Positions 1 through 34,496 of a DNA stretch of 35,365 nt are shown here, piece by piece. The DNA is from Bacteroidota bacterium (lineage in GTDB: Bacteria; Bacteroidota; Bacteroidia; B-17B0; Aurantibacillaceae). The notes under the pieces were generated by a model. That model was given only the letters and a program-made list of their open reading frames with translations, did not search any database and had not been told where the DNA came from. A program made the translations under genes and the position numbers. Numbering within the stretch: position 1 is the stretch's first letter; each line of letters opens with the position of its first letter. The stretch covers positions 1 to 35,365 of the forward strand of contig JANYEQ010000016.1 of assembly GCA_025363015.1 (NCBI GenBank), written 5' to 3'.

Positions 1-180
1 TACCAATAGCCTTGGTTTATTTAATACTCAAATTGGGGCATTTAACCCTTTAATTAGTATAAATTGGCAAGCTGGGCCTTATTTTTTAAAAATAGGAATG
101 GATGCAGCAGGCGGCACCAGTTATACCTTTTTAGGCACGCAGCAACTAGTAAGTGTGCCCTATGCCTTATTTGCCCAAAA
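1..180. repeat. Direct repeat, copy 1 (adhesin N-terminal module)
   Basis: This stretch aligns without gaps to 2061-2240. By eye, 113 of the first 120 bases are identical and about 49 of the next 60, after which the genes diverge. Many of the differences are synonymous. The near identity covers only the shared N-terminal module, which points to duplication followed by gene conversion or module exchange. The repeat may extend upstream of the window. Confidence 0.85.
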
Positions 181-1861
181 AGCTGGGTCGGCACCATCGC
201 CCACAGTAGCGTATGTTGGCAATGTGTTAAGTATAGGCGGCAATACTACTACTATTAATGCAAGTAATATACCCAATGGTGTGAGAGATGGGCAAACCCT
301 GCGTTGGGATAGTTTGGCGCAGGTTTGGAAAAACTCTAACAACCTTACTAACGATGATGTTAGAGTTGCGGTAGGTCTTTTTCCAAACGATATAAAAAGT
401 AAATTTCATGCCACTACTTCAAATCCTTTAGATAGTAGCGCTATTGCAGCCCTGCATGTAAACGCACAAAGTGGGCAAGCGGCTATAAAATCAGTAATAT
501 TAGGCAGTACGCCTAGTAACTCTGTTAACCCATATAGCACTTCTATATTTGGTACCCAAAGTTCAAGTAATAATAATGGTGGGGGTTTTGGTATAGGTAG
601 CTTTAATTATGGAGCCAGTAACAATACAGGTATTGGTGTGATAGGTATTGGTAATGGTAAAGCAAATACTGCTATTGCTATAGGTGTGTACGGCACAACC
701 GACCAAAATAGCTTAACCAACAGCCGCTATGCTGGCTTGTTTGATAAAGGGGGCGTGTTAATAAACGACTCGTTATTATTAGGCACTAGCACAAACCTTG
801 GTAGTGTTGGCGATATATTAACCCGTAGTAGTACTGGTAGAGCAAGATGGCAAAGCCCACCTGTTAATACTGGTCCGTTTACAAATAGTGCAAATTACAT
901 ACACGCAGCGCCATCGTTTACAACTAATAGAATTTTATTAGGAATTCCTTTTTCAGGAAGTATTGGATATAACAGTAGAGTAACCATAGTAAACCCAGGT
1001 AGTTTTTCTTCTGATACGGCTTTAATTATATTGCAAAAAAATGCTAACAAAGTAGCCCTATATAGCGAAAGTAATGGTAGTGGGTATGCTATTCATGGCA
1101 AAAACACAAATGGTAGTGTAGGTATTTATGGCAGTACTAATGCCACAGGCTCGTTTACAGCGCCTGCCATACATGGCGAGGCTTTAGGCACTTCTAATAA
1201 TAATGCAGGCGTTTACGGCTCAGGCAGTAATGCTAATGGTATAAAAGGTTTATCGCAAAGTAATAATGGGGTTTGGGGCGAAAGCAATACTGGAACTGGT
1301 GTTTTTGGTTTATCTACACAAACTGGACAAGCTGGTAAGTTTTTATTACAAGGAGCAACTTCTGGTTTTCCTTCTGTTTATATTGCAACAAACAGTAATC
1401 CACCTGCTTTAAAAGTTGAAACTTATGGCAACGGCGCTGCTATTGAGGCCATAAACTCAACAACAGTAGCGGGTGCTTCCCACAATGCTTTACGTTTAGT
1501 AGATGGGCATATTTCTACAACCCAAACAGTAACTGGTTTTGGAGTAGGAGCTTTAGGATATAATTTTTCTATTGGTTCTACTGGTTGTACCGATGTGGCA
1601 GGCACTTTACAATATGTTAATGGATCAAGTACCATTCCTGTCGCAGGTACGGGTACTATTAATGTTAGTTTTAGTAAATCATACCCCAGCAAACCAGTAG
1701 TGGTGGTAAGCCCTACCAGTAATGAATGGTCACAAACATCCTACTTCGTTCAATCTTCTGTTTCTGGATTTTCAATCATTTTTAAAAACAATACATCTGC
1801 TGCTATAAACCTAACCACCTTTACCGATGCGTTTTCGTATCATATAATAGGCGTAAATTAA
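2..1861 (+). CDS. Surface-adhesin-like protein, 5' end cut by window
   Basis: The reading frame is open from the first bases and matches, in frame, the interior of the next gene from base 2062, so the true start lies upstream of the window. The visible product is about 619 residues. It opens with an N-terminal module (motifs GLFNTQIGAFNP, PYFLKIGMDAAGGTSY, LVSVPYAL) shared with the next gene. A long Gly/Asn/Ser/Thr-rich middle follows, with recurring GVYG, GIYG, GVWGES and GVFG motifs of the kind seen in beta-rich, fibre-like surface proteins. The last 110 or so residues (from DGHISTTQT, about base 1501) form a beta-rich domain resembling the H-type lectin-like ends of phage and bacterial fibres. 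No T9SS sorting domain is visible at the end. The next gene begins two bases after its stop. A surface adhesin is inferred from architecture; the ligand is unknown. Confidence 0.8.
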   Translation, partial: TNSLGLFNTQIGAFNPLISINWQAGPYFLKIGMDAAGGTSYTFLGTQQLVSVPYALFAQKAGSAPSPTVAYVGNVLSIGGNTTTINASNIPNGVRDGQTLRWDSLAQVWKNSNNLTNDDVRVAVGLFPNDIKSKFHATTSNPLDSSAIAALHVNAQSGQAAIKSVILGSTPSNSVNPYSTSIFGTQSSSNNNGGGFGIGSFNYGASNNTGIGVIGIGNGKANTAIAIGVYGTTDQNSLTNSRYAGLFDKGGVLINDSLLLGTSTNLGSVGDILTRSSTGRARWQSPPVNTGPFTNSANYIHAAPSFTTNRILLGIPFSGSIGYNSRVTIVNPGSFSSDTALIILQKNANKVALYSESNGSGYAIHGKNTNGSVGIYGSTNATGSFTAPAIHGEALGTSNNNAGVYGSGSNANGIKGLSQSNNGVWGESNTGTGVFGLSTQTGQAGKFLLQGATSGFPSVYIATNSNPPALKVETYGNGAAIEAINSTTVAGASHNALRLVDGHISTTQTVTGFGVGALGYNFSIGSTGCTDVAGTLQYVNGSSTIPVAGTGTINVSFSKSYPSKPVVVVSPTSNEWSQTSYFVQSSVSGFSIIFKNNTSAAINLTTFTDAFSYHIIGVN

Positions 1862-1863
1862 TT

Positions 1864-3216
1864 ATGAAAAAAACAGTATTACTTTTTATATTATTATCTA
1901 TAAAGGCTTTTTCGCAAAGTCCTTATTTAATAAACTACCAAGGCTTAGCTCGCAATGTAGCGGGCACTCCCATTATTAATCAAGCTATTGGCATTAAGTT
2001 TGAGTTATTGCAGGGCTCCACATCTGGTTCGGTAGTTTATACCGAGCAACAAACAGTAAATACCAATAGCCTTGGTTTATTTAATACTCAAATTGGGGCA
2101 TTTAATCCTTTAAGTAGTATAAATTGGCAAAACGGCCCTTATTTTTTAAAAATAGGAATGGATGCAGCAGGCGGCACTAGTTATAGCTTTTTAGGCACAC
2201 AACAATTAGTAAGCGTACCTTATGCTTTGTATGCCGAAAAATCGGGTAATAATGGTTGGGGCCTAAGCGGTAATAGTGGCACAAACAATACTAATAACTT
2301 TATTGGTACAATTGATAATGTGCCCTTTACTATTAAAGTAAATAATAAATTAAGTGGTAAAATAGATAATATTAATACGAACACCTTTTTTGGTTATACG
2401 GCAGGTATTGCTAACACTAATGGTTTTAACAATACTGCTTTGGGTCATGCGGCTTTATCGTTTAATACCAGTGGCTTTAATAATGTTGCTAATGGCTTTG
2501 AAGCACTTTTAAACAACACAACTGGCACTTCAAATACGGCATTTGGCGTACAGGCATTGTATGCAAATATAACAGGTAGTAATAATACTGCCATTGGTAA
2601 TGCCGCACTTTACGATGCTATAGGGCAAAACAACACTGCTATTGGTTTTACGGCTGGTAAATTAGCTACTGGAGACCGAAACGTTTTTATTGGTCATGGT
2701 GCAGGTTATTACGAAACTGGCGATGATAAACTTATTATTGCAAATAGTAATTCTACCACGCCTATAATACAAGGCGATTTTAATACTGGTAATGTTGGTG
2801 TAGCAGGCAGCGTAGGTATTGGCACTAACGTTACTTCGCTAAATACCCGATTAACAGTTAATGATGGGCATATAAAAGCAAAACAAACAATTGCACCATT
2901 AATTACAGGGGCTAGCGGTACAAGCGCAATTTTTTGGGGTGGAAATTCAACCGATATTAGTGGCATTATTGAAATTACAATGGGTGCAACCACGGCTGCT
3001 GGCTCACAAGCTATTGTTACATTTAATAAACCCTATAACTCAATTCCCATGATAGTTATTACACCAGCAAATAATCAATATGCTGGGCAAGCCGTTTCGT
3101 TAAATGGAGTTTTTGTTGATGCAACAAACAGTGGCTTTAGAATAGCGTTTGATAGTGCTTATGCCAATCCAAATTTTACAATGTATTTTAATTATATAGT
3201 AATTGAAGGAAATTAA
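1864..3216 (+). CDS. Surface-adhesin-like protein with YadA-head-like repeats
   Basis: A 450-residue protein with a signal peptide (MKKTVLLFILLSIKAFSQ, likely cut before SPYL). Residues of about 22-125 form the same N-terminal module as the gene upstream. Residues of about 175-290 hold successive repeats of the type NNTALGHAAL, SNTAFGVQAL, NNTAIGNAAL and NNTAIGFTAG, which resemble the left-handed beta-roll repeats of YadA-like trimeric adhesin heads and Bacteroidota tail-fibre-like proteins. The C-terminal 115 or so residues (from DGHIKAKQT) form a domain related to the end of the previous gene, with a VTFNKPYNSIPMIVITP core. No S74 peptidase or T9SS sorting domain is seen. It starts two bases after the upstream stop, so the two genes are very probably cotranscribed. 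An adhesin role is an inference from architecture. Confidence 0.82.
   Translation: MKKTVLLFILLSIKAFSQSPYLINYQGLARNVAGTPIINQAIGIKFELLQGSTSGSVVYTEQQTVNTNSLGLFNTQIGAFNPLSSINWQNGPYFLKIGMDAAGGTSYSFLGTQQLVSVPYALYAEKSGNNGWGLSGNSGTNNTNNFIGTIDNVPFTIKVNNKLSGKIDNINTNTFFGYTAGIANTNGFNNTALGHAALSFNTSGFNNVANGFEALLNNTTGTSNTAFGVQALYANITGSNNTAIGNAALYDAIGQNNTAIGFTAGKLATGDRNVFIGHGAGYYETGDDKLIIANSNSTTPIIQGDFNTGNVGVAGSVGIGTNVTSLNTRLTVNDGHIKAKQTIAPLITGASGTSAIFWGGNSTDISGIIEITMGATTAAGSQAIVTFNKPYNSIPMIVITPANNQYAGQAVSLNGVFVDATNSGFRIAFDSAYANPNFTMYFNYIVIEGN
2061..2240. repeat. Direct repeat, copy 2 (adhesin N-terminal module)
   Basis: Partner of 1-180 at a constant offset of 2060 bases. It lies inside the second adhesin gene and encodes the end of the N-terminal module, through the LVSVPYAL motif. 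Similarity falls sharply after it, where the two proteins take up different central repeats. Confidence 0.85.
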
Positions 3217-3235: not shown

Positions 3236-4033
3236 ATGATACCATTAAAAAAAATAAATCCACTAAACCTTAGTATAAAAATAGCTCTGCTTTTTTTATG
3301 TATTTCGTTTACCAAAATGATAGGGCAAACAATAACGCCACAAGTTATAAACTCGGCCGGTAGTCATCGCCAATTAGGTAGCACCGGTATTAGCATTACT
3401 GATAATGTGGGCGAACCCTTTACCCAAACCATTGGCGCTAATTTTTTAATTACGCAAGGTTTTTTACAACCCGATATAGTATCCATAGTGGGGCCAACAC
3501 TAAGTGTTATAAAAAGCGATGTTACCTGCACTGGTAAAAACAATGGTTTTATTTCAGCCGCAATTTCTAATGTATTACCAACCTATACTATTACTTATAA
3601 TTGGTTGCCCATAAGCCTATGCCCTGCAAGTGACTGTAGCATGGTGGATAGCTTAATGGCAGGCACTTATACCCTACAAGTTATTGTTGATACTGGCACA
3701 AAAACAGACACCTTACCTGTACAAATAATTACTATAAACGATATAAACGGCCCGTGTAAAATAAATATATTTAATGCCCTTACCCCTAATGGCGATGGCA
3801 CAAACGATGTATTTACAATTGAAAACATTAATGAGTTTCCTAAAAATACAGTCACTATTTATAACCGTTGGGGCCAACAAATTGCCGAAATTAAAAATTA
3901 CGATAACGTTACAAAGTATTGGCCAGCGCGCGAAGATGCTGCTAAACTTGTTTCAACTACCTATTTTTATATTATTAATTTAGGAGATGGAAGCAACTTA
4001 ATAAAAGGTTGGGTAGAAATTTTAAAAGATTAA
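3236..4033 (+). CDS. Small secreted protein with T9SS type B sorting domain
   Basis: A 265-residue protein with an N-terminal hydrophobic signal segment (residues 14-30, probably cut before QTIT). Residues of about 85-165 form one beta-domain that resembles the short repeats of SprB-like adhesins (DVTCTGKNNGFI, then MAGTYTLQV). Residues 177-265 are a gliding-motility-associated (CHU_C / type B) C-terminal domain, with ALTPNGDGTND at 181-191, then VTIYNRWGQ and a C-terminal KGWVEILKD strand. Type B domains direct export through the T9SS and in known cases work with a PorP/SprF partner. A PorP/SprF gene lies 30 bases downstream. The protein is much shorter than SprB. Its own function is unknown; secretion is well supported. 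Confidence 0.88.
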   Translation: MIPLKKINPLNLSIKIALLFLCISFTKMIGQTITPQVINSAGSHRQLGSTGISITDNVGEPFTQTIGANFLITQGFLQPDIVSIVGPTLSVIKSDVTCTGKNNGFISAAISNVLPTYTITYNWLPISLCPASDCSMVDSLMAGTYTLQVIVDTGTKTDTLPVQIITINDINGPCKINIFNALTPNGDGTNDVFTIENINEFPKNTVTIYNRWGQQIAEIKNYDNVTKYWPAREDAAKLVSTTYFYIINLGDGSNLIKGWVEILKD

Positions 4034-4063
4034 ATAAACAATAAAAACAAAACTGCATTAAAA

Positions 4064-4987
4064 ATGAAAAAACAATTACTTATACCCTTAGCCCTTGTCC
4101 TTTGCTTTATTGGCAATGCTCAGCAAGACCCTCAATATAACCTTTACCAATTTAACCAAATGGTTATTAACCCTGCATATGCTGGTGCCCGCGATGGTTT
4201 AAGCGTAATAGGTGCTGTACGTAACCAGTGGACAGGCTTTAATGGCGCACCCAAAACTACTTGCTTAAGTGTGCACGGTCCCATTTTAAATAAAAATGTA
4301 GGTGTAGGTTTAACGGTTGTAAACGATGTTATGGGCCCACGAAATATGTTTGGTATATATGGCAACTTTGCATACATTTTAAAATTATCTACTAAATGGA
4401 AACTATCATTAGGTGTAAACGCAGGTTACAATCGTTTTCAATTCGATTTTAATAAATTAAATTTTAAAACTACCGAAAACACACCTGTATTTTTACAAAA
4501 CCAAACTTACAATGCCTTAGATATAAATTCAGGCTTTTACCTACGCACCAATTCGTTTTTTATTGGCATAAGCGCTACACATATTGCGGCAAATGATGTG
4601 TTTAACATTTCACTTACTAATGGTCAAAATGTAGGCTACAGATTACGTACGCATACCTTTGTTAGCATAGGCAAATCATTTTCTATAAACAAAAATGTAG
4701 TGTTTGCCCCCACTCTTTTATTAAAAAATACCGATAACGCAGGCTTACTAGATATTAATTTAAACTTTTTTTTATACAAAAAATTATGGTTAGGCGCCTT
4801 TGTGAGAGGGGGCTATGGACCAGGTTTTTTATTACAATACTATGTAACTCCTAAATTTAGAGTAGCCTATAGTTACGATACAGGTGTAAACGATAGGCGC
4901 CGCTTAGGGCCCAGCCACGAAGTAATGCTTGGATTTGATTTTTCAGGAAGTAATAAATCAAAAATGATTAGCCCACGATTTTTATAA
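4064..4987 (+). CDS. PorP/SprF family T9SS outer-membrane protein
   Basis: A 307-residue protein with a signal peptide (MKKQLLIPLALVLCFIGNAQ) followed at once by the family hallmark QDPQYNLYQFNQMVINPAYAG and, a little later, VRNQWTGFNGAP. The rest is a succession of alternating hydrophobic strands expected for a beta-barrel, ending in an aromatic strand. PorP/SprF proteins sit in the outer membrane and are needed for export or surface attachment of type B T9SS cargo. Its position between a type B cargo gene (30 bases upstream) and a PorE-like gene (5 bases downstream) suggests it serves that cargo. PorP-like genes are usually present in several copies per genome, and a second one lies at 14494 in this window. 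Confidence 0.92.
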   Translation: MKKQLLIPLALVLCFIGNAQQDPQYNLYQFNQMVINPAYAGARDGLSVIGAVRNQWTGFNGAPKTTCLSVHGPILNKNVGVGLTVVNDVMGPRNMFGIYGNFAYILKLSTKWKLSLGVNAGYNRFQFDFNKLNFKTTENTPVFLQNQTYNALDINSGFYLRTNSFFIGISATHIAANDVFNISLTNGQNVGYRLRTHTFVSIGKSFSINKNVVFAPTLLLKNTDNAGLLDINLNFFLYKKLWLGAFVRGGYGPGFLLQYYVTPKFRVAYSYDTGVNDRRRLGPSHEVMLGFDFSGSNKSKMISPRFL

Positions 4988-4992
4988 AACTT

Positions 4993-7662
4993 ATGATTCA
5001 CAAACTAATTTATACTGTACTATTTACCGTTTACATAAACCCTCTTTTTTGCCAAGTAAGCAAAGGCGATAAGTATGTAGCAAAAGCACAATACATTAAA
5101 GCCATTAGCAAATACAAAAGCGCTACTAACGAAAAAAATTCGGCGGTAAAACAAGATGCTTTAATAAAACTTGCCGATTGTTACAAAAATATAAACGAAT
5201 ACGAAAATGCCGAATTAGCATACAAAAATGCATTAGCCATTAATACCAACGTAAATGCCGATGTGTTTTATAACTACGGGCAAGTACTAAAAGTGAATAA
5301 CAAATACCCTGAAGCCGTTGAACAATATAACAATTACATAAAACTAAAACCCAATGATGCCAATGCAAAAAAAGCATTAAAATTTTGTAAAGAAATAAAT
5401 TACTACACCAGTAAACCTATTGAGTATAAAGTAAAAAACTTAGAAAAAATAAATTCTGATAAATCTGAATTTTCGCCCTTTGTACAAAATAATAAATTAA
5501 TGTTTGTTGCCGAACGTGTTGAATTTAATTTTGTAGACTATAACGTAAACGATTATAATGGTGAACCTTACCTAAACATGTACGCCTCTGAATTAAAAGG
5601 CACCGAGGTAAAAAAATCAAAATCGTTTTCAAAAAAATTAAATACCGATTATCACGACGGCCCAGCAAGCCTTAGTGCCGATGGCAAAAACCTTTACTTT
5701 ACACGCGTTAATTACAAACAAAAAAAAGATTTTGTAAACCACGCAAAAATATTTATAGCCACCGGTAGCGATAGAAAATGGAGCAATACCCAGCCATTTG
5801 AATACAATAGCGATAGCTACTCTGTAGCCCACCCTAGCATTAGCCAAAATGGCAACTACTTATTTTTTACAAGTAATATGCCCAATGGCTTTGGCGGAAA
5901 AGATATTTACGTATGCACAAAAACCAATAACGGTTGGGGCAAACCCGTTAATTTAGGGCCAGATATTAATACCAGTGGCGATGAAATGTTTCCCTGCATT
6001 CGTAAAGATGGTGTTTTGTTTTTCTCATCCACAGGCCTGCCAGGCTTTGGCGGTTTAGATATTTATTCGGCAAAAACTGTAGATAATAAATGGCTTTTAG
6101 TGCGTAACGAAGGCCTAACGCTAAATAGTAGTTACGATGATTTTGGCATTACATTTTTAAACGATAGCGTTGGTTATTTTTCATCTAATAGGCTGGGTGG
6201 TAAAGGCAAAGACGATATTTATATGTACGAATTTAAAAATAAAGCCATGACACTTTCGGGTACTGTTTTACTAACCGAAAATACAAACAACCCTGCACAA
6301 AATGTAAAAGTAGTATTATTAGATGATAAGGGCATTGCCCTAGATAGCACTAAAACCAATGCTAATGGCGTATTTGAATTTAAAAATTTAGATGCAGAAA
6401 AAAAATACATGACCGTGATTGACGAAACCGACCCTAAGTTTACAGGCAAAGCACGTTATTATTTGGCCGATAAAAATGGCGTGATACAACGTGTAACCGC
6501 AAAAGTAGGAAATAATAAATTTGTATTTAAAAACTTACCCGTTGACCCCAACGGCTTACCCGATTTATTTACCGACGATAATTTAACCCTTGCCGGAAAT
6601 TTACTGTATGGCGAAAGCCCCAGTAAACCTATAAAAAACACACGCATAAAAATTGTAAACGATTATGGCGATGTGTTAGAAGAAACCACCACCAACGAGT
6701 TTGGCGCTTTTGCATTTCGAAATATACCCACCGATCAAAATTATTTAATTGCCATTGAAGAAACCGATATATCACTTCCCGAAAACACAAAAGTTACCTT
6801 AACTAATAAAAGTGGTAAAGAGTTAAAAACCTTTAGAACGGGAAAAGAAAATTTTAGATTTAAAATTTTAAGTTCAGATAAAACATTAATGGCCGATATG
6901 AATGCCGAAGACGAAAACTTAGTTATGGAAGTATATGGCTACATGTACGACCAAAATAAAAAACCAATAACCAATGCTAAACTTAAAATTAAAGAAGAGG
7001 GTAGCGCTTTTGAACCTCAACAAGTAAACACCAGTGATAAAGGAAAATTTAATTTTAAAAATCTTAAAGGCGATAAAAATTACCTATTTGAAGCCGATGA
7101 TAAAGACCCTGCCCTTAATGGCGTAAAACGTATTTACATTGCTGATGCCAAAGGTCGCATTTATAAAGTACTAGATAAAAATGGCGAAGGTAAATTTAAT
7201 TTTAAATTGTTAGAGGCCGATAAAGTTGCCATGGGCGAATTTGTCGTTGACGACCCTTGGTTACAAGTATTAGAAATGAAAAACAAAGCCAACCAACAAC
7301 TTACCATTGTTGAAAGTATTTATTACGCCAGTGGCGATTTTAAATTAGATGCGGCAGGAATTACCATATTAGATAAAGTAGTAGGTGTTTTAGGTACAAA
7401 CCCAAAATTAATGATTGAACTGAGTTCGCATACCGATAGCAAATCGAGTGATGTATTTAATTTAGCACTTTCAAAAAAACGTGCACAATTTGCGGTTGAT
7501 TATTTAATAAGCAAAGGCATTACCAAAACCCGTTTAAAAGCTGTAGGTTATGGCGAAACCAAACTATTAAACAAATGTGGTAATGGTGTAGATTGTACCG
7601 ACGAAGAACATAAAATTAACCGCCGTACCGAATTTAAAATTACCGAACAACCTAAAATGTAA
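4993..7662 (+). CDS. PorE-like OmpA-family T9SS accessory protein
   Basis: An 889-residue exported protein (signal peptide ending near FCQ at 19-21). The domains in order are TPR-like helices at about 23-135, a WD40-like (PD40) beta-propeller at about 145-412 with blades such as DGPASLSADGKNLYFTR and HPSISQNGNYLFFTS, three carboxypeptidase-regulatory-like domains at about 419-505, 531-620 and 645-735, and an OmpA C-terminal domain at about 770-885. Asp815 and Arg830, 15 residues apart as in OmpA domains that bind peptidoglycan, are both present. The order TPR, propeller, CRD, OmpA is that of PorE from Porphyromonas gingivalis, which links the T9SS to peptidoglycan. PorE is described with one CRD; three here is a variation. 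It starts 5 bases after the PorP/SprF gene, so the two are probably translated from one mRNA. Confidence 0.88.
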   Translation: MIHKLIYTVLFTVYINPLFCQVSKGDKYVAKAQYIKAISKYKSATNEKNSAVKQDALIKLADCYKNINEYENAELAYKNALAINTNVNADVFYNYGQVLKVNNKYPEAVEQYNNYIKLKPNDANAKKALKFCKEINYYTSKPIEYKVKNLEKINSDKSEFSPFVQNNKLMFVAERVEFNFVDYNVNDYNGEPYLNMYASELKGTEVKKSKSFSKKLNTDYHDGPASLSADGKNLYFTRVNYKQKKDFVNHAKIFIATGSDRKWSNTQPFEYNSDSYSVAHPSISQNGNYLFFTSNMPNGFGGKDIYVCTKTNNGWGKPVNLGPDINTSGDEMFPCIRKDGVLFFSSTGLPGFGGLDIYSAKTVDNKWLLVRNEGLTLNSSYDDFGITFLNDSVGYFSSNRLGGKGKDDIYMYEFKNKAMTLSGTVLLTENTNNPAQNVKVVLLDDKGIALDSTKTNANGVFEFKNLDAEKKYMTVIDETDPKFTGKARYYLADKNGVIQRVTAKVGNNKFVFKNLPVDPNGLPDLFTDDNLTLAGNLLYGESPSKPIKNTRIKIVNDYGDVLEETTTNEFGAFAFRNIPTDQNYLIAIEETDISLPENTKVTLTNKSGKELKTFRTGKENFRFKILSSDKTLMADMNAEDENLVMEVYGYMYDQNKKPITNAKLKIKEEGSAFEPQQVNTSDKGKFNFKNLKGDKNYLFEADDKDPALNGVKRIYIADAKGRIYKVLDKNGEGKFNFKLLEADKVAMGEFVVDDPWLQVLEMKNKANQQLTIVESIYYASGDFKLDAAGITILDKVVGVLGTNPKLMIELSSHTDSKSSDVFNLALSKKRAQFAVDYLISKGITKTRLKAVGYGETKLLNKCGNGVDCTDEEHKINRRTEFKITEQPKM

Positions 7663-12661: not shown

Positions 12662-13055
12662 AAATTGATAAGGTTTTATTATATAATGAGTTTAATTTTA
12701 AATGTGTCTGGACTACAAATAAATGCAAAAAAAAGCCCGTTTAAAAAGTAAATGAATTAACACTTAGCCTAAGTTTTAAACACTTGCAATTAACCGTGAG
12801 TAGTTGATAACCTTTAATTGTGTTGATTTACAGCAGTATAACAAATTACCCAAAAAATTACAAAAATTGATTTGTAAAATCAAAAAAAAATATTAAGATA
12901 AAGTATAAGAATTAAATAAACAAACCTACATATTTATTGAAATAGACCATTTTAAAGGGTTTTAAAAGCTATTTTGCTAATAACTTTTAGTTGTAGGCAA
13001 TTTTAAATGCAACTTTAAATTTATTTTTACGTTTAAAGAGTTAAATTTTATAATT
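12662..13055. other. 394-bp intergenic region between divergent nrdB and sigma-factor genes
   Basis: No gene is supported here. The stretch is very AT-rich and must hold the promoters for nrdB (leftward) and for the sigma-factor operon (rightward). An inverted repeat, CAATTAA (12787-12793) and TTAATTG (12814-12820) with a 20-base spacer, is the most regular structure. A 5-bp dyad ACTTA-GCC-TAAGT lies near 12760-12775. No convincing -33/-7 pair, NrdR box or DnaA box was found. Confidence 0.6.
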
Positions 13056-13640
13056 ATGTTTTCGGCAGAAACCTTATCCGCACTTTTTAAACACGATAAA
13101 ATTGCCCAAAAGCAAGTTTTTGAAACATTGTATCCAAAATTATCGGGCATTTGCAACCGTTATAGCAAAAACCAAATACAAGCTAACGAAATTTTAAATG
13201 CTGCCTTTAATAATTGTTTGCATAAATTACAGCAGCAACGTCATAATCAGCAATTAAATGTGGCTGAATTCATTGAAAAACAATTTATTATAGAGTGTGT
13301 AGACTTTATTAAATCTATCCGAAGCGAATATTATGTATCGAGCACTGTTTACGCCACAAGCACTAGCGATAAAACTTACGATTTGTTTGAGGACAGTGTT
13401 TTTGTAGATGTAAATACTGCCAATAACGAAATTATAATAAAATCGTTACAACAGTTAGTACCATCGCAACGTTTAATATTTAATTTGCATGTAGTGGATA
13501 GTTATACTTTAAAAGATGCTGCACAAATTTTAGAAGCCAGTGAAGAAACTGTAAAAAGTAATTTAGAAAAAGCACGTTTTAATTTGCAAAAAAATATTGA
13601 AAAAAACATAAAATCAATAAAAAATGAGCAGCCATTATAG
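13056..13640 (+). CDS. ECF-like RNA polymerase sigma factor
   Basis: A 194-residue sigma-70 family protein. Residues of about 16-92 fit region 2 (ends in FIKSIRSEYY) and residues of about 124-180 are a sigma region 4 helix-turn-helix, LVPSQRLIFNLHVVDSYTLKDAAQILEASEETVKSNL (134-170, given here by its end motifs). Region 3 is absent, as in ECF sigma factors. Region 2 is divergent, so promoter specificity cannot be guessed. The gene for a single-pass membrane protein starts 17 bases before this stop codon in another frame, implying translational coupling of the kind seen between sigma and anti-sigma genes. The third gene of the cluster encodes a PorP/SprF protein. Confidence 0.85.
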   Translation: MFSAETLSALFKHDKIAQKQVFETLYPKLSGICNRYSKNQIQANEILNAAFNNCLHKLQQQRHNQQLNVAEFIEKQFIIECVDFIKSIRSEYYVSSTVYATSTSDKTYDLFEDSVFVDVNTANNEIIIKSLQQLVPSQRLIFNLHVVDSYTLKDAAQILEASEETVKSNLEKARFNLQKNIEKNIKSIKNEQPL

Positions 13641-14469
13641 TTACGATATTGATGAGCGTAATTTGCGTTTAAAACTAAAAGGTAACGAAATGCCTTTTAC
13701 CGAAGACATTTGGTTAAAATTTGAAAGCTACCAGCAAACGCACCAAAAACAACAAAGTATTGATGATGTTGTTAAAAAATTTTCGTTTAAAATAAATCGT
13801 AATGTTGTTTTACCTATAGTTTTTGGCGCTGTAATTATTGCTTTTTCGTTACTGTTATTTAATTTTATTAATATAAAAGCAAAACCAAAAATAATTACAA
13901 ATATACCAAGTACAACAGTAGCCATAAAAAAAACAGAGCCTAAACCTGTACTAATTAAAAAAACTATTTTAACCGATTCTACACCTAGTATTAAAAAAGA
14001 TACTCTTGTTACTAAAACAACGTCTGTTATGGTAACACCAACTGTTACAATTATTACACCTACCCTTACCGCCATTATTAACACACCTGTTGCTACAAAT
14101 GAAACTGGCGAATTTTGGACAGCAACCGAAGATGGTACTATTTTTGAAGAACCAGATAAATCATCAAAAATAATTGGTAACGTACAAAAAAAACAAAGCT
14201 ATACCGCTATTAAAGAAACCAACTATTTTATTAAAGTGGCGTTTACTACTAATGGAAAACCAGAAGTTGGTTATATTAAAAAAATGATAGTTTTAAAAAC
14301 TGTACAAAAAAATACTAATATAGTAAGTACAAAAAATACAACATCAACAAAAGTAGAAACCAAAAAAACAAAAAAGAAAAAACTAAGAAAAGCCGAAAGT
14401 TTAGAACCTATAAAAGCACCAAATGTACTATCAACAGGTGCGGACAATAAAGAACCTGAGTTACGATAA
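13624..14469 (+). CDS. Single-pass membrane protein with SH3-like domain, candidate anti-sigma
   Basis: A 281-residue protein not assigned to a named family. Residues 1-58 are polar and would lie in the cytoplasm. One membrane helix spans about 61-83 (VVLPIVFGAVIIAFSLLLF). A Thr/Pro/Lys-rich linker follows, then a bacterial SH3-like domain at about 164-225 (EFWTATEDGTIFEEPDKSS, then VGYIKKMIV). A Lys-rich tail ends the protein. The start overlaps the sigma-factor gene by 17 bases. This arrangement suggests an anti-sigma factor or periplasmic sensor that holds the sigma factor at the membrane and reads the cell wall or a secreted partner through SH3. No anti-sigma zinc-binding motif is seen, so the role is inferred from position and topology. 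Confidence 0.75.
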   Translation: MSSHYSYDIDERNLRLKLKGNEMPFTEDIWLKFESYQQTHQKQQSIDDVVKKFSFKINRNVVLPIVFGAVIIAFSLLLFNFINIKAKPKIITNIPSTTVAIKKTEPKPVLIKKTILTDSTPSIKKDTLVTKTTSVMVTPTVTIITPTLTAIINTPVATNETGEFWTATEDGTIFEEPDKSSKIIGNVQKKQSYTAIKETNYFIKVAFTTNGKPEVGYIKKMIVLKTVQKNTNIVSTKNTTSTKVETKKTKKKKLRKAESLEPIKAPNVLSTGADNKEPELR

Positions 14470-14493
14470 TTGCATTTTAAATTTATTAAATTA

Positions 14494-15417
14494 ATGGTTT
14501 TTATAAAACGTTATTTGCTTATTTTTTTAATTGCATTTGTTTTTAAAACTCAGGCACAAGACCCTTTATTTACTAGTAACCAACAATCGTTATTGTACTT
14601 AAACCCATCATTTGCCGGTAGTAATGGGTTTATGCGCTACCAATCTGTTTACCGAAATCAGTGGCCAAGTTTATCATCTTCATATATTACATTTTATAAT
14701 AGTTTTGATGCTTACATAAAACGTATTAAAGGAGGTGTTGCACTTTGTTATTTAAACGATAACCAAGCCAATGGAACATTAATAACCCAACGATTAGATT
14801 TAACGTATGCACAGCATTTTGAGCTATTAGATAAAAAGTTAAAAATTGTGCCTTCAATTCAAATTACGTATTTGCAAAAAAATATAGACGCAACAAAACT
14901 TACATTTGGCAGCCAAATTTATCAGCAAAACCATATAGAAATAACAAGTTCTAAAAAAATTAATGTAGATTTCAGTTCAGGTTTATTACTAAATTACAAA
15001 CACTTTTATTTTGGCGCTTCAGTGTTTCATTTTAATCAACCCGATGAAGGACTTTTAGGATTTAGCAAATTACCCGCGCGTTTAAGCCTATTTGCATCCT
15101 ATAATTTATTACTTTCTGAAAAAACAGTATTACATTTTTATGGTAGATATGAAAAACAACAACAGTTTTGTTTTTATCAATTAGGCATAAATGCTGTTTT
15201 TTTTAAACATTTAATTGTAGGTGCTGGTTACAAATATAGTAACAGCGCCTTTACTAATTTAGGATATAAAAATAATTATTTTACATTACAAGCTGGTTAC
15301 GAATTATACTATAGCACTATAGGTAACGGCACGTTTTTTTCATACGAACTAACAGCAAGTTTTAATTTACGCTCAAAAGAGCAACGCAAAATACTTACTG
15401 ATTTTGAAAAATGGTAA
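14494..15417 (+). CDS. PorP/SprF family outer-membrane protein (second copy)
   Basis: A 307-residue protein. The ATG at 14494 was chosen over an in-frame TTG at 14470 because it directly precedes a normal signal peptide (MVFIKRYLLIFLIAFVFKTQAQ) and leaves a 24-base gap to the gene before. The mature protein starts QDPLFTSNQQSLLYLNPSFAGS and continues VYRNQWPSL, the PorP/SprF hallmarks, then alternating beta-strands. Unlike the copy at 4064 it has no type B cargo gene beside it; it follows a sigma factor and a membrane SH3 protein. It may be the outer-membrane component or output of that signalling unit. It ends 6 bases before the stop of the converging protease gene. Confidence 0.88.
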   Translation: MVFIKRYLLIFLIAFVFKTQAQDPLFTSNQQSLLYLNPSFAGSNGFMRYQSVYRNQWPSLSSSYITFYNSFDAYIKRIKGGVALCYLNDNQANGTLITQRLDLTYAQHFELLDKKLKIVPSIQITYLQKNIDATKLTFGSQIYQQNHIEITSSKKINVDFSSGLLLNYKHFYFGASVFHFNQPDEGLLGFSKLPARLSLFASYNLLLSEKTVLHFYGRYEKQQQFCFYQLGINAVFFKHLIVGAGYKYSNSAFTNLGYKNNYFTLQAGYELYYSTIGNGTFFSYELTASFNLRSKEQRKILTDFEKW

Positions 15418-20391: not shown

Positions 20392-22062
20392 TTACTTTAT
20401 TATAATTTTAGTGTCTGGAAAATCGCGTGGTCCATCAGGCGCTTGCACAATAATATCTTCAAAATATACCTTACCACCTTTTTTTGCTTTAGTTAAAATT
20501 GCATCCTTTGCTTGTTGGCTAAGCGTATTGCCAGTGCATGTATAATCTTGTGAAATAGCACCATTACTGGCAACACTTACTTTAAATTTTATTACTTTAA
20601 ACGGAGCATTAAAATCAAAGCCTGAATTATCAGTACCAATACTGGTTATATTTTTCACATCGCTTAAAGGCATTTCAATATTACCAAACGAACTTTTACC
20701 ATTAATACGTAATGGTGGATTAGGAAATTTTTTAACTCTAAATATTATAGGTGCGCCTTGTTGTTTTAAACCTGTTGCTGTTTTTTGCATTACAGTTATA
20801 ACACATGTGCCAGCGCTAATTGCTTTTGCAATATACTTTCCATTACCATTATTGTTTAAGGTAGCACCACAACCCGTTACATTTATCACTAAATCGGTTG
20901 GTGCCACACCTGCTGCCGAAATGTTTACCGGGTTATCAATACCAATATAAAATACATTCATTTTCTCAGCACTCACAGCAACCGCACTATTAGCAACAAT
21001 GTATTCGTTAACATACTTATAATATTTATTAGTACCGTTTCCATCTTTAAATTTTATCCATCCATTTATTTCTTTATGCCCTGCGCCACTAGTTGGTATA
21101 TTTATTTTACCTGTTCCACTTTCAATGGGTAAAATGGTAGCTCCTTCGGCAATTTTTCCAGTAGTTGTATCTACATCGCCTAAAATAAACTGCATGTTTT
21201 CGTTTGTAAAATCGGTAGATGAAGCAGATAAAAAAACATCTGCAGTAAAAGCATTACCCGATTGTACATATTGGCTAACAGGTACAATACGGGCTTGTAA
21301 TTGATTAAATTTTACGGCTAATTTACCCGATGCTGAGGCAAAGGTAGTAACCATTTCAGCTTCAATATTTCTAATATCGCTTTGTATTTTTGAAAGATTG
21401 GTAACTACCGCAGCTAATGGCATATTATAAAAATTTTTTAGTTCCCAGGTAAGAGGCTTACCCTCTTTGTCTTTAAAATTATTGTGGGGCGTAAATAATT
21501 TAATTTTATCTTTTAAAATTAAATAATCTTTTTCGGGTAATTTTAATCCGTTTTTATCTTTCATATCATCAATTATTTTATTTAACTGATGGGTTAATGT
21601 TTCAATAGTTACACGTAATTCTGTTGCTGAATATTGGCTTGATTTTGGTTTTGTTTCATCGCTACCAATTAAAAAAAAGGTAGGTTTATCGTAATCGTCT
21701 AAACGTTCAATTTGTGCTAAATTCATAGTATCAGCACCTTTTACATCTTCGGTATATTGTTTTACTTGTTGTTTTAAAATAGCAATATAATCAAACGTTT
21801 TTTGTGTAAGTTGTGTCACTTCTTTTGCTTTTTGATAATAGGGCTTGGCGTCGTTATGTCCTTGTTTAATAGCTTCATCAAAGGCTTGCATCATTAATTT
21901 AGTATTTGCGTTAAAGTTAGAGTTTGTATTTTCAATACTATCGTTAATGGTAACAAAACCTTGTAATACTTCTTTACTAACGTTTAAAGCCAGCAAACAG
22001 GTTAGCACAAGGTACATCATACCTATCATTTTTTGGCGAGGGGTTTCTTTTGCGTTACTCAT
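20392..22062 (-). CDS. gldM: GldM/PorM, T9SS and gliding motor subunit
   Basis: A 556-residue protein beginning MSNAKETPRQKMIGMMYLVLTCLLALNVSKEVLQGF (family N-terminus, given by its start). One membrane helix at about 12-33 carries Arg9 just before it and Glu31 within its end, charged positions conserved in GldM. The rest is periplasmic: helical stalk followed by beta-domains, ending in the GldM C-terminal domain (about 440-556: ISPLRINGKSSFGNI-like segment and APDGPRDFPDTKIIIK tail). GldM pairs with GldL in the proton-driven motor that powers type IX secretion and gliding. The usual gldK-gldL-gldM-gldN neighbours are absent: downstream is an arginase-family gene and upstream a divergent secreted protein. 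It may be a relocated single copy or a paralog. Confidence 0.93.
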   Translation of the reverse strand: MSNAKETPRQKMIGMMYLVLTCLLALNVSKEVLQGFVTINDSIENTNSNFNANTKLMMQAFDEAIKQGHNDAKPYYQKAKEVTQLTQKTFDYIAILKQQVKQYTEDVKGADTMNLAQIERLDDYDKPTFFLIGSDETKPKSSQYSATELRVTIETLTHQLNKIIDDMKDKNGLKLPEKDYLILKDKIKLFTPHNNFKDKEGKPLTWELKNFYNMPLAAVVTNLSKIQSDIRNIEAEMVTTFASASGKLAVKFNQLQARIVPVSQYVQSGNAFTADVFLSASSTDFTNENMQFILGDVDTTTGKIAEGATILPIESGTGKINIPTSGAGHKEINGWIKFKDGNGTNKYYKYVNEYIVANSAVAVSAEKMNVFYIGIDNPVNISAAGVAPTDLVINVTGCGATLNNNGNGKYIAKAISAGTCVITVMQKTATGLKQQGAPIIFRVKKFPNPPLRINGKSSFGNIEMPLSDVKNITSIGTDNSGFDFNAPFKVIKFKVSVASNGAISQDYTCTGNTLSQQAKDAILTKAKKGGKVYFEDIIVQAPDGPRDFPDTKIIIK

Positions 22063-34423: not shown

Positions 34424-34496
34424 GATTCCGTAGCTCAGCTGGTAGAGCATTACACTTTTAATGTAGGGGTCCTGGGTTCGAATCCCAGCGGGATCA
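34424..34496 (+). tRNA. tRNA-Lys (anticodon TTT)
   Basis: A 73-base cloverleaf. The acceptor stem pairs GATTCCG with CGGGATC (one G-T pair), the D stem is GCTC/GAGC, the anticodon loop reads CTTTTAA with anticodon TTT, and the T arm is CTGGG-TTCGAAT-CCCAG. The discriminator base is A34496. CCA is not encoded. A consensus promoter precedes it and a strong terminator follows 12 bases after the end. Confidence 0.97.

Follow-up and report, generated by a model that had tools for sequence, protein, structure and literature searches.

A conserved ECF sigma factor and predicted anti-sigma factor pair with a PorP/SprF gene in its operon in a Bacteroidota genome

A stretch of 35,365 nucleotides from a Bacteroidota bacterium of the Aurantibacillaceae (assembly GCA_025363015.1, contig JANYEQ010000016.1, positions 1 to 35,365 of the forward strand; hereafter the window) carries at 13056-15417 three closely packed genes encoding an extracytoplasmic function (ECF) type sigma factor, a single-pass membrane protein, and an outer-membrane barrel of the PorP/SprF family. 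The locus raises the question of whether these genes form one signalling unit, and what such a unit would report on. A preliminary description of the window had proposed that the trio senses the wall or the state of outer-membrane secretion and adjusts transcription of type IX secretion system (T9SS) genes. What can be read directly from the DNA is a conserved overlapping gene pair, an ECF-type promoter, the layout of the membrane partner, and the PorP gene 24 bases further on. The operon contains the following features:

13009..13036, + strand: ECF-type promoter of the sigma operon, GCAACTTT-N13-CGTTTAA, 19 nucleotides (nt) before the sigma ATG (pattern match)
13056..13640, + strand: ECF-type sigma factor, 194 amino acids (aa); TIGR02937 and Pfam region 4
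13624..14469, + strand: single-pass membrane protein, predicted anti-sigma factor, 281 aa; overlap, N-terminal profile matches and one membrane helix
14494..15417, + strand: PorP/SprF-family outer-membrane barrel, 307 aa; PF11751 and TIGR03519

The coordinates confirm the packing given in the preliminary description. The open reading frames (ORFs) of the sigma factor and the membrane protein share 17 bases (13624-13640), and the PorP ATG at 14494 lies 24 bases past the membrane-protein stop codon. The ORF list starts PorP at a TTG at 14470; we chose the ATG at 14494, which gives a normal-looking signal peptide by eye. The sigma factor scores 50.5 bits on the sigma70-ECF model TIGR02937 (cut-off 42.9; residues 17-180) and 38.2 bits on Pfam region 4 (cut-off 25.7), and the barrel exceeds the cut-offs of both TIGR03519 (147.5 bits versus 90.55) and PF11751 (122 bits versus 22.3). 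In the sigma alignment the stretch EYYVSSTV between the sigma regions is unusually conserved.

The sigma gene and its partner are consistently found together. Among 60 loci retrieved around the best sigma homologues in relatives, 58 have the candidate partner as the next same-strand ORF (the exceptions are L112 and L115). One hydrophobic segment, starting at residue 49-82, is present in 58 of 59 partners including that of the window, and absent from L102. The two ORFs overlap in all of the 42 nearest loci (the window and L061-L101), by 17 bases in 28, four bases in 12, and eight bases and one base in a single locus each. Overlap is also found in 15 of 17 more distant loci, L102 and L117 being without it. 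The conserved unit is a sigma/anti-sigma-type pair, beyond chance, and together with the promoter described below this supports the earlier pairing of the two proteins. Profiles of the partner N-terminus, built for five groups drawn by hand, match each other. The profile from the window's genus matches that of a distant clade with linked PorP genes (see below) with an hhalign probability of 96.5 and that of a group with CHU_C domains with 96.1; for a barrel-ended group the value is 81.6 over 95 residues with the membrane helix and 91.6 without the helix.

The partner of the window can be divided into five parts:

13624..13797, + strand: residues 1-58, predicted cytoplasmic sigma-binding region; profile matches, AlphaFold2 helices 11-19, 27-43 and 46-51
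13798..13869, + strand: residues 59-82, membrane helix; AlphaFold2 helix with a predicted local distance difference test (pLDDT) score of ~93 mid-helix, and hydropathy
13870..14103, + strand: residues 83-160, disordered tether, taken as periplasmic; AlphaFold2 pLDDT blocks of ~45-64, almost no secondary structure
14113..14301, + strand: residues 164-226, bacterial SH3-like barrel, in a subset of relatives only; Pfam SH3_3, AlphaFold2 and PDB matches
14371..14466, + strand: residues 250-281, basic stretch and acidic C-terminal tail (..AExLExI..P..L...EPELR); alignment

Residues 1-58, which had been singled out as the stretch to try against the sigma factor, are indeed the part before the membrane helix in the AlphaFold2 model (built on an alignment of 40 rows), and we infer that they lie on the cytoplasmic side and bind the sigma factor. 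W30 and L18 are conserved in this stretch. The SH3-like barrel is modelled with pLDDT ~90-96, while its Pfam SH3_3 match of 23.8 bits is under the cut-off of 27. Foldseek against the PDB places bacterial SH3 domains at the top, with a single match at E <0.001. The best structural matches include 4r0k and 3npf, SH3 domains of putative dipeptidyl-peptidases VI, which we take to be cell-wall enzymes. With L082 excluded from the alignment, the SH3 domain is found in 10 of the 40 aligned partners, which rules it out as the defining part of the family and removes the SH3 sensor from the centre of the preliminary description. The N-terminus, membrane helix and charged tail are found in most partners that lack it; the tail recurs in most aligned partners with or without SH3 (by eye; AlphaFold2 confidence is low there). 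Pfam and AlphaFold2 give an SH3 domain and a disordered tail at the C-terminus of the window protein and no beta-barrel, and no type B secretion (CHU_C) domain is recognisable in it.

Paired boxes such as those at 13009-13036 are the usual form of an ECF promoter. The pattern G[ACT]AAC[CT]TT-N13/14-CGT[AT]NAA occurs upstream of the sigma gene in 34 of the 42 nearest loci, compared with 0.9% in shuffles, a count that includes L070 and L100 (sites at -10 and +1 of over-long annotated starts, ~50 nt before the aligned start) and in which L077 was scanned at the wrong start. The sites are mostly 45-58 nt ahead of the start, and 13009-13036 is the sole strict match in the window. The position of this promoter suggests that the sigma operon is likely autoregulated. 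Other clades have one kind of promoter each before their own sigma gene (GCAAC..CGT; by eye), and CCAAC..CGTA precedes six paralogous sigma genes in the genus (G000:C71, where G000 is the genome of the window, G015:C13, G018:C5, G001, G007:C122 and G035:C11), counting readable sites only; for several others no site was seen or the wrong strand was read. The 24-base gap before the window PorP is too small for a separate promoter, and transcription of the gene would start from 13009-13036, barring a promoter within the gene of the membrane protein.

A recurrent association of such a pair with PorP was identified in a distant clade. A scan of genome contigs using the sigma alignment found 80 loci, some on contigs already met. 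In 21 of these, one of the next two same-strand ORFs (counting those of 100 aa or more) is a PorP gene, and all 21 belong to one clade of 26 loci from uncultured Bacteroidetes (L190-L213, L215 and L216) that was grouped by hand from tables and sequences. Identity across the 21 loci is 55-98% for the sigma factors and 52-95% for PorP. The genes upstream fall into eight groups (10 of the 21 loci share one, an M16 peptidase in L193), and those downstream, for 20 loci, into ten; with flanks this varied, the linkage of pair and PorP outlasts changes around it. The sigma promoter of the clade, GCAAC-N15-18-CGT[CT], in short GGCAACC-N-CGTCT, is present in 24 of the 26 loci. PorP has its own copy of this promoter in 20 of the 21 loci compared with 0.1% in shuffles; the site of L197, missed in this count, is visible by eye, and the sigma site of L190 in the same scan is doubtful as it overlaps the start codon. 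The copy lies 50-57 nt ahead of the start (68 in L190), and is often preceded by a hairpin-like stretch and T (by eye). PorP is therefore a predicted direct target of the sigma factor in this clade. Among the 60 loci retrieved first, PorP follows the pair at L103 (G080) and L119 (G097), which belong to two other families. When six genomes of the family of G080 were scanned for a regulon, 24 sites were found versus 18 control sites, and solely sigma and PorP recur by profile.

Some further observations concern the barrels and partners of these lineages. Most partners of the clade (L190-L216) have the motif GNEPxFGDMLDSSKGIIGETKEKE behind the membrane helix. In the genome of the window, a PorP on contig C81, more closely related to the barrels of the clade (~61% identity), has a site 197 nt upstream. 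Sites also occur in G014 and G023, and none upstream of L145, L146, L147 and L149. We regard this site as weak, as it is inside the start of a divergent ORF in G000, G014 and G023. At L151, L152 and L160, tandem PorP genes adjoin an Xaa-Pro aminopeptidase-like gene (peptidase identity by eye).

Partners in other lineages may connect the pair with T9SS cargo in another manner. Of eight partners scanned in the CHU_C group, two (that of L230, and that of L244 from Salibacter halophilus) have a C-terminal CHU_C type B secretion domain over cut-off, and those of L219 and L239 match it under cut-off. Foldseek of the L244 partner returned Ig/PKD-like matches and nothing specific to type B domains. 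The partners at L217, L219, L230 and L244 are membrane proteins of anti-sigma-like type that have PKD and CHU_C-like domains at their ends, with CHU_C not found in L217. Other partners (L224, L225, L234, L235 and L237) resemble outer-membrane barrels in matches under cut-off, which recalls the Dma proteins discussed below; a Rufibacter partner is likewise of the barrel type. For shuttle barrels a type B cargo gene directly upstream is common though not required: in the genome of the window a CHU_C match immediately precedes 10 of the 16 PorP genes, the window PorP not being one of them. In the window an anti-sigma-like gene replaces the cargo gene before PorP, and some sister anti-sigma factors carry the cargo domain. 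Chiefly on these two features we propose that the tail of the partner may communicate with PorP.

The promoter type of the window also precedes the T9SS core operon. In 40 genomes of the genus the window pattern gave at least 188 sites versus at least 84 for the reversed control. We examined 67 non-sigma sites, among the matches listed, in 13 genomes. The largest recurrent group precedes gldK in all 13, with 89-96 nt between the end of the motif and the ATG. As the choice of several of the 13 had followed sites noticed near PorP genes, gldK was then tested across the genus. Of 32 genus genomes whose gldK start could be read, 30 have a strict window-type site 114-124 nt ahead of the start codon, with GldK identified by TIGR03525. 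This count excludes G027, G031, G003, G004 and G024, whose start was unparsed (G004, G024 and G027 also have the site, by coordinates or by eye); G025, G022 and G038 have no gldK match at the threshold used, and gldK is split in G010. Eight pattern hits of one cluster were set aside as they fall within conserved coding sequence. By pattern, gldKLMN has the same promoter type as the sigma operon. In L290 a PorP gene precedes gldK.

Several features of this system have precedents. The Dma1 and Dma2 anti-sigma factors are described as having an N-terminal sigma-binding domain, a membrane helix, a disordered tether and a C-terminal barrel (PMC13088901). The window is similar to that description in its sigma gene beside a partner with a predicted N-terminal sigma-binding region, a membrane helix and a long disordered tether. 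However, its partner has an SH3 domain and charged tail where the Dma proteins have their barrel, and the barrel gene that comes next, PorP, is separate. The likeness rests on the profile match to barrel-ended relatives, Dma1 and Dma2 themselves being set beside the window by description. In the accounts of PorXY-SigP of Porphyromonas gingivalis (PMC4800418, PMC7712824) an ECF factor is likewise tied to T9SS genes. However, SigP acts with the response regulator PorX, whereas the window sigma gene overlaps its own membrane partner; this comparison, too, is by description. In Flavobacterium psychrophilum the SM6 promoters, of the CGT-box kind, are reported to stand before T9SS genes (gldN, porU) and one sigma-ECF/anti-sigma operon (PMC9723704). 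The genus of the window shares with it such ECF promoters common to T9SS genes and a sigma/anti-sigma operon; unlike the window operon, compared here by description, that operon has no PorP in the table of that source. Finally, PorP-like proteins are described as binding type B domains, with their genes often following the cargo gene (PMC9143113, PMC12618676). The window PorP similarly lies directly 3' of the gene of its likely partner, but in contrast to those shuttle pairs the upstream gene encodes an anti-sigma-like protein in which no type B domain can be recognised.

Anti-sigma factors of the Dma type are already known, as is control of T9SS by ECF factors. In searches of open-licence papers, no title or abstract opening among those listed describes such an operon, or anti-sigma factors with type B domains. 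The best reading of the window system is a barrel-less relative of the Dma systems with a link to T9SS. That the two genes are an autoregulated sigma/anti-sigma pair is very probable, and the link of the pair to T9SS and PorP is somewhat better than an even prospect. Taken together, we modestly favour a switch in which an ECF sigma/anti-sigma pair regulates its own operon and is coupled to T9SS at the outer membrane, with PorP/SprF newly placed under its promoter.

Under such a mechanism residues 1-58 would hold the sigma factor, the tether would cross the periplasm, and the tail would report on the outer membrane (PorP-type barrels being the most likely target); binding of the SH3 domain to the wall may help the tail in the window protein. 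When the tail is disengaged the anti-sigma factor would be cleaved and the sigma factor freed, which would then transcribe its own operon, in the window including PorP, and the supply of the barrel would feed back on the switch. In the genus of the window the freed sigma factor may also act on gldKLMN, which has the same promoter type, or a second sigma factor may do so instead. We are doubtful that PorP itself is the ligand sensed. Similarly tentative is a broader proposal, in which a family of anti-sigma factors would span the periplasm and read the state of type IX shuttle barrels, with free or loaded barrels setting sigma activity and, through it, how much barrel is supplied. Members of such a family would themselves end in a type B domain in some lineages, and other lineages would make a separate PorP/SprF under the sigma promoter.

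A number of observations weigh against a T9SS-coupled switch, and several of them would be expected if the pair were a general envelope-stress switch and PorP a passenger in one lineage without a functional tie, which we consider unlikely. PorP follows the pair in none of the 53 other loci of the window's family (some of which are cut by contig ends), and the trio as a conserved unit of this lineage, the linkage on which the preliminary description had staked its proposal, is not supported by these loci. In many loci of the genus the slot behind the pair instead holds a 118-aa globin-like protein (by eye; no Pfam hit) and then kynureninase (L074 was tested). The genome of the window has 16 PorP genes, so that by our estimate, assuming ~2,900 genes, the chance of a PorP behind a given gene is ~0.5%, and with 54 family loci about one in four such surveys would include a chance case. 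A PorP neighbour taken alone is a weak signal, and that of the window may be there by chance. In a FastTree phylogeny with weakly supported deeper nodes, the window PorP sits among unlinked paralogues from its genus, far from the PorPs of the trios. It pairs with L124 of G015 (support 0.94) at a distance of 0.82 versus at least 2.48 to the trio PorPs, and is not an orthologue of the PorP of the distant clade. From this position the linkage in the window probably arose independently; an ancestral trio inherited from a common ancestor with that clade is rejected on the PorP tree and the family loci. However, a passenger does not account for the separate clade, which ties a similar pair to PorP both by place (21 of 26 loci) and by promoter (20 of 21), nor for the slot in the other genera of the family, which in the loci scanned holds T9SS-sorted proteins (two genes in L087, one in L183).

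Alternatively, the sigma operon may be a target of a T9SS regulon and not its controller, with another ECF factor, of the SigP kind, reading the shared promoter ahead of the pair and of gldKLMN. The promoter type of gldK is kept where the window sigma factor is missing: G007 has a strict site and no close orthologue of it, and G035 has a near match. The site is present in G032 (60% complete), and it extends to other families, strict in G089 and similar in G080, where the sigma promoters of its own clade are of another type (by eye). For this reason we do not accept gldK as a proven target of the window sigma factor. Six more ECF-like matches occur in G000, one of them interrupted by a stop in frame, and the ECF gene G007:C32 (L455), with GCAACCTTT and CGT upstream, is a candidate for reading the gldK promoter of G007. 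Nevertheless, sigma promoters are specific to clades (as in the 24 loci of the PorP clade), as autoregulation would give, and the readable paralogous sigma genes of the genus have CCAAC..CGTA; we judge this arrangement rather improbable. A cell-wall stress switch, in which SH3 senses peptidoglycan and PorP is merely a product, would fit the dipeptidyl-peptidase SH3 domains among the best structural matches. It is very unlikely given how few partners have SH3, whereas most of the rest share the N-terminus, membrane helix and charged tail. Further points against the favoured T9SS-coupled switch are that single pattern sites mean little given the genus-wide control count; that in P. gingivalis SigP is reported to have bound the upstream region of porP and not that of porK (PMC4800418); that sigma region 2 has diverged (no Pfam match is listed for the window protein at E up to 1, and 10 of 21 aligned members match at E 0.01); that CHU_C was not matched in the partners of L217, L223, L229 and L238; and that the outer-membrane barrel matches of L224, L225, L234, L235 and L237 are all sub-threshold. 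The preliminary description is supported in part. In favour of its link to PorP/SprF and T9SS are the PorP promoter of the distant clade, the gldK sites, whichever sigma factor may read them, and the two CHU_C-ended partners.

The surroundings of the operon include other T9SS genes. In opposite orientation beside it are a ribonucleotide reductase beta-like gene (below the cut-offs of the models) and nrdA (over cut-off), and past PorP on the other strand is a T9SS-sorted M43 protease. Elsewhere in the window are the following:

98-3216, + strand, just upstream of the T9SS cassette: ORFs of 587 and 450 aa with no Pfam match at E 0.001
3236-7662, + strand: T9SS cassette of a CHU_C protein (weak match to SprB repeats), a further PorP/SprF and an OmpA protein that is PorE-like (under the cut-off of the PorE model) and carries TPR and PD40 repeats
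20392-22062, - strand: second GldM/PorM, apart from the gldK operon (TIGR03517, 287.7 bits, over cut-off)
34424-34496, + strand: tRNA gene, the sole Rfam match in the window at gathering score

In the genome of the window gldK is split over contigs C69 and C71, and there are three GldM_1st matches, one with an internal stop.

To our knowledge, how Bacteroidota match the supply of T9SS parts to demand has been described mainly for PorXY-SigP of a single species (PMC4800418). Should these pairs report on barrels of the PorP type, they would provide a link from the outer membrane to a sigma factor in one chain or two genes, with no need for a two-component system. Such a link, if true, could explain how supply and demand are matched in other lineages. 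It would also connect the recently described Dma anti-sigma factors with T9SS. With the promoters, a candidate sigma-binding stretch and a candidate tail now defined, the idea is directly testable.

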